A stretch of DNA of 37,182 bases from Deltaproteobacteria bacterium. GTDB taxonomy: Bacteria > Myxococcota > Myxococcia > Myxococcales > 40CM-4-68-19. The notes under the pieces were generated by a model that saw only the letters and a program-made list of their open reading frames with translations, did not search any database and was not told the origin of the DNA. The stretch is from positions 1 through 37,182 of the forward strand of contig VBLC01000079.1 of the NCBI GenBank assembly GCA_005879315.1, written 5' to 3'. The number at the start of each line of letters is the position of its first letter. Position 1 is the stretch's first letter. Shown piece after piece: positions 12,676 to 14,715 of this stretch. The translations under genes were made by a program, and so were the position numbers.

Positions 12676-13545
12676 ATGCCGGGAAACTTTCGCGTCGGCC
12701 TCATCCAGATGTCCATGTCGGCCGATCCGCAGGTCAACCTGGAAAAGGCGGCCGCGCGCATCGAGGAGGCGGCGGGCAAGGGCGCGCAGGTGGTCTGCCT
12801 TCCCGAGCTGTATCGCTCGCAGTATTTCTGCCAGCGCGAGGACGCGGCGCTCTTCGATCTGGCCGAGCCGGTGCCCGGACCGAGCACGCAGCGGCTCTCG
12901 CAGGTCGCGCGCAAGGCTGGCGTCGTCCTGGTGGTGCCGGTCTTCGAGAAGCGCGCGCCGGGCCTCTACCACAACAGCGCCGTCTTTCTCGACGGAGGCG
13001 AGCAGGTCGGCCTCTACCGGAAGATGCACATCCCCGACGACCCGGCCTTCTACGAGAAATTCTATTTCGCGCCCGGCGACCTCGGCTTCCGCGCCTTCGA
13101 CACGCGCGCCGGCCGGATCGGCGCGCTCATCTGCTGGGACCAGTGGTATCCGGAAGGCGCGCGGCTCACCGCGCTGCAGGGCGCCTCGGTGATCTTCTAT
13201 CCGACGGCGATCGCCTGGCATCCGCACGAGAAGGCGCAGCACGGCGCCGTGCAGCGGGACGCCTGGAAGACGGTGCAGCGCGGGCACGCCATCGCCAACG
13301 GAGTGTACGTCGCGGCCGTCAACCGCGTCGGCCACGAGGGGCAGCCTGGGCTGGAATTCTGGGGCACTTCCTTTCTTTGCGACCCCTTCGGCGTCGTGGT
13401 CGCCGAGGCCTCCAGCGACAAGGAGGAGATCCTCATCGGCGAGATCGACCTTGCCCGCATCGAGGAGGTGCGGCGCAACTGGCCTTTCCTCCGCGACCGC
13501 CGCATCGACGCGTACTCCGGCCTGGAGAAGCGCTATCTCGACTGA
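12676..13545 (+). CDS. aguB: N-carbamoylputrescine amidase AguB
   Basis: Nitrilase-superfamily enzyme of 289 residues that hydrolyses N-carbamoylputrescine to putrescine, CO2 and ammonia. The Glu-Lys-Cys triad is visible as E44 in CLPELYRSQYFC, K116 in LYRKMHIPDDP and C153 in ALICWDQWYPEGAR. The sequences LYRSQYFCQ, HIPDDPAFYEKFYF and WDQWYPE are characteristic of AguB rather than of other nitrilases. Length is normal. The adjacent downstream gene is agmatine deiminase, which makes its substrate, so the pair forms the two-step agmatine route to putrescine. There is no ribosome-binding site before ATG 12676, but a -10-like box lies close by. Confidence 0.95.
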   Translation: MPGNFRVGLIQMSMSADPQVNLEKAAARIEEAAGKGAQVVCLPELYRSQYFCQREDAALFDLAEPVPGPSTQRLSQVARKAGVVLVVPVFEKRAPGLYHNSAVFLDGGEQVGLYRKMHIPDDPAFYEKFYFAPGDLGFRAFDTRAGRIGALICWDQWYPEGARLTALQGASVIFYPTAIAWHPHEKAQHGAVQRDAWKTVQRGHAIANGVYVAAVNRVGHEGQPGLEFWGTSFLCDPFGVVVAEASSDKEEILIGEIDLARIEEVRRNWPFLRDRRIDAYSGLEKRYLD

Positions 13546-13569
13546 AGCGCATCTCATAACGTCCCAAAA

Positions 13570-13695
13570 CCGGGCCCAGGTTCGGGCGCGTACTCGGGTC
13601 CGCGGACGTGGACGGCGACGGGTCCGGCCTACCAGCAACGCGCCCGTCGGCGTCCCCGTTCCCGTGAACGAGTACGAACCCGGGCCCTGGCCCGG
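13570..13695. repeat. Long inverted repeat built of phased hexamers between aguB and aguA
   Basis: Two 58-base arms (13570-13627 and 13638-13695) separated by ten bases are complementary at 41 of 58 positions without any gap. Within them, six-base units of the form GNNNNC keep phase: GTACTC, GGGTCC, GCGGAC, GTGGAC, GGCGAC on the left, and GTACTC, GTTCAC, GGGAAC, GGGGAC, GCCGAC on the complement of the right arm. The transcript could fold into one long imperfect GC-rich hairpin. It may attenuate or terminate transcription between the two genes, or protect the aguB message. Confidence 0.75.
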
Positions 13696-13719
13696 CGCTT
13701 GTGCTCCTTGAGGGGCGAG

Positions 13720-14715
13720 ATGTCTTCCGTACTGCCCGCTGAATGGGAGCCGCACGAAGCCACCTGGCTGGCCTGGCCGCACAACGCGAGCGACTGGCCG
13801 GGAAAGTTCGCCGCCATCCCTTGGGTCTACGCGGAGATCGTGCGGCGCATCGCCGAGGGCGAGAGGGTGCGCCTGTTGGCCGGCGCGTTCGAGGAGAAAG
13901 CGCGGGCGGTGCTGCGGCGCTCGGGTGTGCCCTTCGATAAGATCGAGTTCCTGCGCATTCCCACCGACCGCGTCTGGACGCGCGACTCGGGGCCGTTGTT
14001 CGTGCGCAAGGACGGCCGAAAAGCGATCGCGCATTTTCGCTTCAATGCGTGGGCAAAGTATCCCGACTGGAAGCGCGACGGGCGCATTCCCGAGCGTGCC
14101 GCGAGGTTCTTGCAAGTGCCGCTCTTGCCCATGGGCGGGGTCGTTCTCGAGGGCGGAGCCATCGACGTCAACGGCGAAGGGTTGCTGCTCGCCACCGAGG
14201 AATGCCTGCTCGACAGCGAAGTGCAAGTGCGCAATCCCGGCTTTTCGCGCGCCGATTATGAAAAGCTATTCAGGGATGGTTTGGGCATTACCAGGACGAT
14301 CTGGCTAGGCAAAGGCATCGCGGGGGATGATACCCACGGCCATGTCGACGATCTGGCCCGATTCGTCAATCCGCGGACCATCGTCCTCTGCGAGGAAAAA
14401 AACCCGGAGGACGCCAATCATCCCGCGCTGCAGGAGAACGCTGAGCGGCTGCGCGGTTCGGGCCTCGAGATCGTGCCGCTGCCGATGCCGCAGCCGGTCC
14501 ATTTCGACGGCCGCCGTCTTCCCGCAAGCTATGCGAACTTCTATATCTGCAATGCTGCGGTGCTGGTGCCAACCTTCGACGATCCGGCCGACCGGACCGC
14601 GCTGGGGATCCTCGCCGAGCTGTTTCCAGATCGCGCGGTGGTGGGAATCCACTCGCGCGACCTCGTCTGGGGCCTGGGGACGCTCCACTGCCTCTCGCAG
14701 CAGGAGCCACGGTAA
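13720..14715 (+). CDS. aguA: Agmatine deiminase AguA
   Basis: Guanidino-group-modifying enzyme of 331 residues that converts agmatine to N-carbamoylputrescine and ammonia in the cytoplasm. Family motifs are in order: LPAEWEPHEATWLAWPHN at the start, DRVWTRDSGP, LEGGAIDVNGEG, GDDTHGHVDD, and the C-terminal nucleophile C324 in GLGTLHCLSQQEP. The usual motif around the cysteine is GGGNIHC; here Thr replaces the Asn, a substitution near the active site. ATG 13720 is preferred over GTG 13699 because GAGGGGCGAG sits just before it. It follows aguB after a 174-base gap filled by a long hairpin-forming repeat, so co-transcription is likely but possibly attenuated. Confidence 0.94.
   Translation: MSSVLPAEWEPHEATWLAWPHNASDWPGKFAAIPWVYAEIVRRIAEGERVRLLAGAFEEKARAVLRRSGVPFDKIEFLRIPTDRVWTRDSGPLFVRKDGRKAIAHFRFNAWAKYPDWKRDGRIPERAARFLQVPLLPMGGVVLEGGAIDVNGEGLLLATEECLLDSEVQVRNPGFSRADYEKLFRDGLGITRTIWLGKGIAGDDTHGHVDDLARFVNPRTIVLCEEKNPEDANHPALQENAERLRGSGLEIVPLPMPQPVHFDGRRLPASYANFYICNAAVLVPTFDDPADRTALGILAELFPDRAVVGIHSRDLVWGLGTLHCLSQQEPR

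Follow-up and report, generated by a model that had tools for sequence, protein, structure and literature searches.

Introduction

Intervening sequences (IVSs) of 23S rRNA are located in helix 9, 25 or 45, and shorter ones without an ORF also exist. Proteins of the family PF05635, for which we know of no function, are known mainly from such insertions and for their relationship to Avd. The IVS of Coxiella burnetii is a 428-nt hairpin with inverted ends, which carries the S23 gene in its loop and is cut by RNase III in its stem (PMC4990558).

Here we analyze an inverted repeat between aguB and aguA in the window, which is the whole stretch of 37,182 nucleotides under study, together with its relatives (family A and others). 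In our view, the repeat is probably a miniature, gene-less version of an IVS-like element located in intergenic DNA. The long forms resemble the 23S rRNA IVS in their terminal inverted repeats, long hairpin and S23/IVP four-helix-bundle gene in the loop (PMC4990558), but the elements lie between protein genes, exist in many copies per genome and have arms made of GNNNNC words. REPINs and REP sequences are likewise intergenic, with two inverted units, an RNA or single-stranded DNA hairpin, solo-unit remnants and a gene-less short form (PMC3116915); the present elements differ in their length of about 130 bp, their six-base words, their IVP-bearing long forms and the absence of family A copies from the Y1 flanks examined. 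Bacterial MITEs and RU-1 and RU-2 have a similar size of 100-200 bp, terminal inverted repeats and multiple intergenic copies (PMC2759123), whereas no parent transposase with the same ends was found here and the gene sharing the arms is IVP. The Avd protein of diversity-generating retroelements is resembled by PF05635 proteins (PMC10053308), but the genome containing the window (G000) has no match to the reverse transcriptase family PF00078. In the open-access literature, we found no description of an intergenic hairpin element with arms of GNNNNC words.

Structure of the inverted repeat

The features of the locus are listed below.

12676..13545, plus strand: aguB, carbon-nitrogen hydrolase (PF00795); its stop codon precedes the element by about 20 bp
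13566..13700: family A hairpin element, probably a gene-less miniature copy, with the stop codon of aguB on one side and the ribosome-binding site of aguA on the other; aligned as A1 among 10 full copies
13566..13569, minus strand: TTTT (AAAA as written on the plus strand) at the left end, a remnant of the family terminus CCAAAAACCGGG...CCCGGTTTTTGG
13570..13627, plus strand: left arm, 58 bases, 41 of them complementary to the right arm without a gap
13584..13625: left-arm run of seven consecutive GNNNNC words, with junction columns almost invariant from copy to copy
13628..13637, plus strand: loop; its place is taken by the IVP gene in the C38 copy
13638..13695, plus strand: right arm, 58 bases; 91% (57 bp) and 84-86% identity to the arms flanking the IVP gene at G000:C38
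13640..13687: right-arm run of eight consecutive GNNNNC words, likewise with almost invariant junction columns
13720..14715, plus strand: aguA, agmatine deiminase family (PF04371); its ribosome-binding site, GAGGGG at 13710, is about 10 bp past the element

The sequence-only reading had described gapless 58-base arms complementary at 41 positions, with a GNNNNC rhythm. Recounting gave exactly 41 of 58 at 13570-13695, with no better placement among those tried, and the rhythm was present as the seven-unit run on the left (GGGCGC, GTACTC, GGGTCC, GCGGAC, GTGGAC, GGCGAC, GGGTCC) and the eight-unit run on the right (GCGCCC, GTCGGC, GTCCCC, GTTCCC, GTGAAC, GAGTAC, GAACCC, GGGCCC). That reading also expected shuffled sequences to fall short in both complementarity and phase. 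The best score for 50-bp arms was 36, compared with a mean of 24.4 (sd 1.6, maximum 30) for 300 dinucleotide shuffles, and a run of eight units was found in none of 5000 shuffles. The expectation was thus borne out for complementarity and longest run, which exceeded all dinucleotide shuffles, but not for the total number of units in one phase; this was 9, a value reached by 39 of 5000 shuffles, and is unexceptional because the loop puts the two arms in different absolute phases. The proposed comparison of folding energy with shuffled controls gave -98.3 kcal/mol (z = -4.5), and none of 200 shuffles was as good.

Both strands of the element can be folded into a long hairpin, and 19 hairpins of families A and C (the latter described below) had folding z values from -3.8 to -13.3. 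Judging from folding and arm complementarity, the long inverted-repeat stem typical of the 23S rRNA IVS is present in the window element and its family. The search of Rfam with the window element gave no match above the gathering score, and its one weak viral match, far below threshold, is attributed to chance; no known RNA family was recognized.

Copies of family A and the agu site

When the G000 assembly (125 contigs) was searched with the window element, 7 further full-length matches (8 full copies including that of the window) and about 10 partial ones were found. The covariance model built from ten full family A copies recovered those ten, on both strands. Remnants were also observed, namely solo arms (twice on C52, once on C65), one copy reduced to its left half (C22) and another interrupted where its contig stops (C92), and one copy (C38) is split by a gene between its arms. 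The copies lie in intergenic gaps, often nearly filling the gap, and a stop codon is usually only a few bases away. Outside G000, no family A copy was found in 40 relatives beyond short matches at chance level, and none in a wider scan of genome contigs, although near relatives may be hidden in that set. On sequence comparison, the inverted repeat is not peculiar to agu and is one copy of a dispersed small hairpin element in a soil myxobacterium-like genome. As a separate observation, the copies of C118 (L010) and C92 (L018) have nearly identical flanks, with one contig ending inside the hairpin, reflecting an assembly break or strain variants at the palindrome.

In the congeners G001 and G003, whose aguA proteins are 70-72% identical to that of G000, aguB and aguA are immediate or near neighbors, and nothing is inserted between them. 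The element would have been gained in the G000 lineage or lost in both congeners, and gain is the simpler reading. No target-site duplication could be fixed at this site, the empty congener sites being too diverged to place the element ends. The sequence-only reading had taken the location between two genes of one pathway to suggest effects on relative expression. A special role for that pathway was not supported, since the same element occurs in more than 10 unrelated gene gaps and is absent between the adjacent genes of the two congeners. Regulation specific to agu was rejected as the primary reading for the same reasons.

The position of the copies bears on the explanation that the hairpin is a bidirectional intrinsic terminator or an mRNA 3'-end stabilizer, selected at gene ends. 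The hairpin is strong, and the family ends read CCGG followed by T tracts, with TTTT at 10 of 22 ends compared with 0.23% of the 8-mers of the window. The copies mostly follow stop codons and occur at convergent genes; by our reading of 12 sites with clear neighbor orientation, the neighbors were convergent at 5, tandem at 6 and divergent at 1. However, the agu mRNA strand has CGCTTGTG after the stem at the right end and no U tract, so that the hairpin is not read as an aguB terminator; the other ends of the family are mixed, and families B and C are without T tracts. This explanation also leaves the word phase, the IVP cargo, the half copies and the absence from congeners unaccounted for, and we regard it as distinctly unlikely.

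An effect of the element on the expression of aguA and aguB is nevertheless possible. Transcription would place the hairpin between the two reading frames, and, by analogy with IVS and REP hairpins, it may be a target of ribonuclease III or a protector of the mRNA 3' end. On that analogy, RNase III processing or protection of the aguB end would be a reasonable outcome.

The six-base word rule

Across nine aligned family A copies, the junction columns (word positions 1 and 6) were invariant in 25 of 26 cases, compared with 23 of 52 inner columns (Fisher, p = 4e-6). The contrast persisted when only G- or C-dominated inner columns were compared (12 of 31 invariant), and CpG columns outside the phase were conserved in 9 of 17 cases, compared with 28 of 31 junctions. 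Among ten copies, word positions 1 and 6 had a pairwise divergence of 0.00-0.03, compared with 0.14-0.44 for positions 2-5. The frozen junctions are not a selection effect, because the copies were collected by similarity and not by pattern. Since the C|G junction is almost frozen across the nine copies, the phase is a property of the family.

The manner in which the inner bases vary was also characteristic. Transversions outnumbered the remainder, transitions, by 41 to 17, and 16 of 36 variant words were changed at two or more positions, often with 2-4 changes per unit. Left-arm words 3 and 7 were identical to each other in 5 of the 9 copies (permutation, p = 0.002). By eye, the C118 copy and the interior of the window copy seem to run in the opposite orientation to the other copies, with borders at word junctions. 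Compensatory covariation between the arms was weak, as both sides had changed in only 4 of 42 pairs and the covariation term was slightly unfavorable; selection for exact arm pairing was not borne out. Coding selection was discarded as well, the inner-base changes being non-synonymous in every frame read by eye.

The sequence-only reading had suggested selection for the pattern rather than for exact bases, or a unit-wise replication mechanism. Its first half stood in so far as the pattern is kept while the inner bases vary, and the transversions, the multiply changed words and the identity of words 3 and 7 fit unit-wise exchange; selection on the junctions is the alternative. The data appear to favor whole-word exchange rather than point changes, and are compatible with selection on the junctions too.

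The genome-wide search for such runs, which had also been proposed, gave 85 runs of eight GNNNNC words in G000, compared with 3 for the reversed-pattern control; this control leaves some codon-phase effect, and small excesses should not be over-read. Two more hairpin-forming families follow the same rule, B (GTGCTC, GAGCTC, GATGTC and others) and C (GTTGAC, GGCGAC, GTGGCC and others), and both are also present in congeners. Large excesses were found in some other Myxococcota (1132 versus 1 in G033, 399 versus 5 in G016). The excess is missing from many genomes of one family (f4), and is therefore not general to GC-rich genomes. Long arrays of GACCNC or GNGGTC words, some inside reading frames, were also seen in G033, G016 and G129, members of a related genome family (L086-L091, L267, L268).

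Near-tandem arrays of this kind raise the question of whether the arms are degenerate hexanucleotide microsatellites, inverted by chance and kept in phase by slippage only. Long near-tandem GNNNNC arrays do occur in related lineages (992 twelve-unit matches in G033 compared with 0 in the control). However, the family A words are not tandem copies of a single unit, and a 130-bp sequence is homologous between unlinked sites, with its ends and both arms in common and a near-constant length. The microsatellite explanation is disfavored and appears very improbable.

The window itself contains a second, decayed element, with inverted family B arms at 2178-2285 and 2784-2855. Its start coincides with the stop codon of the 1044-2195 gene, and its arms enclose about 500 bp that are not IVP-like. 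Between them, on the minus strand at 2307-2651, lies an ORF of 114 aa, cysteine-rich and with a lipobox-like start (MLLGC), which is possibly cargo.

IVP genes between the arms

In C38 (family A) and C62 (family C), the arms are about 365-380 bp apart and each pair encloses a gene for an IVP (23S rRNA intervening-sequence protein, a four-helix bundle). The Pfam E values for PF05635 were 7.6e-20 and 4.1e-21, respectively, and the C38 protein matched the solved structure 2GSC (E = 1e-6). In the profile search of G000, C62 (E = 2e-20) and C38 (E = 3e-19) were the best two PF05635 matches; the split arm pairs had been recorded before this search was made. The C38 arms share 84-91% identity with those of the window element, the C62 arms are 78-88% identical to family C hairpins, and the arms of the IVP loci on C84 and C76 match family B hairpins (best matches 90-94%). 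Gene-bearing copies thus recur in families A, B and C. The only in-frame ATG seen in C38 sits at the edge of the left arm, and this IVP gene may be translated through the arm or may be degenerate.

Among 38 PF05635 loci from seven genomes, 17 were flanked by inverted arms with a score higher than any of 196 control places, and the period of these arms was mostly 6 bp; the other types were (GGGAAA)n/(TTTCCC)n and units of 7 bp and 5 bp. PF05635 was found in 12 of 17 genomes with GNNNNC excess and in 31 of 129 without it (p = 2e-4, by a statistic that ignores phylogeny). Compared with the 23S rRNA IVS, C38 and C62 have an IVP/S23 ORF in the loop and the window copy does not; none of the elements lies inside 23S rRNA, the window copy being between aguB and aguA and the others between protein genes. 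Several observations count against the IVS-like reading: the window copy is without an IVP gene, the remaining 21 of the 38 loci had no arms above the control maximum, the word length of some arms is 5 or 7 bp, and cargo other than IVP is possible between arms, as at 2178-2855 of the window. No IVP was detected in G004, G006 and G008, assemblies that are 74-89% complete, despite their family C hairpins.

A second group of IVP loci was observed in G000 (C40, C28, C85 and C77; L232, L233, L235 and L238), with (GGGAAA)n ends and the conserved inverted core GCAGGCGCGCGCCAACGCC...GGCGTTGTCACTGGCGCCTGCAT. Similar cores lie upstream of IVP in G001, G002 and G009, and an Rfam scan of three representatives (L232, L256, L265) gave no match. 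Paired PF05635 matches, close together on opposite strands, were seen at G033 C1:1810679-1811307 and similar places.

Search for transposases and reverse transcriptases

The hairpin of two inverted units, its scattered intergenic copies and the solo arms as remnants would also suit a palindromic repeat of REPIN or MITE type that is mobilized by a transposase, Y1 (RAYT) or another, with the IVP genes as passengers. Y1_Tnp matches numbered 13 in G000 and 21 in G001, and one Y1 copy (C69) has a fragment of family B immediately upstream. Nevertheless, none of the flanking sequences retrieved for the 13 Y1 genes of G000 contained a family A repeat. Family A therefore has the inverted-unit, multi-copy intergenic hairpin of REPINs and not the REP-type repeat flanking a RAYT, and no RAYT link was found for this family in those flanks. 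The main Y1 family is multi-copy, unlike the single-copy RAYTs; it comprises about eight active-looking copies with 83-90% DNA identity (L186-L195). In addition, IVP between arm pairs recurs in all three families, and movement by such a transposase seems unlikely.

No parent transposase sharing the element ends was found, and between homologous arms the 125-contig assembly contained only IVP genes. The incomplete G000 assembly had 0 matches to PF00078, so that a reverse transcriptase acting in trans was set aside and a diversity-generating retroelement route through the Avd-like fold is not supported here.

Discussion

The insertion and the identity of the element are well supported by comparison of its copies and sites, whereas we infer the role of the protein, the mode of movement and the effect on mRNA. 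As an IVS-like intergenic element, the complete form would consist of two inverted arms, each of about nine GNNNNC words, around a small IVP gene (PF05635), and the short form of the arms and a small loop alone. The element would have been inserted as a unit, and an arm-recognizing factor acting in trans probably moved or copied it. The arms would diverge by whole-word exchange, slippage and inversion, beyond point mutation alone, and the phase would thereby be kept.

The IVP-carrying relatives suggest a little-known kind of bacterial mobile element. Going further, we propose only tentatively, as an idea on the doubtful side, that this is a hitherto unrecognized class of bacterial mobile hairpin element, with IVP as the sole gene acting on arms of short-period words, the arms evolving word by word under the rule of one C|G per six bases, and the gene-less hairpins as its parasites. 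If this is true, the orphan IVP/S23 family gains a role outside ribosomal RNA. The repeated occurrence of IVP inside intergenic inverted word arrays, together with many gene-less hairpins that have the arms in common, would offer a genomic context for testing the function of PF05635 and the mobility of IVSs. The phase rule means that a repeat holds its six-base frame while its words change, a pattern that ordinary point mutation does not produce.
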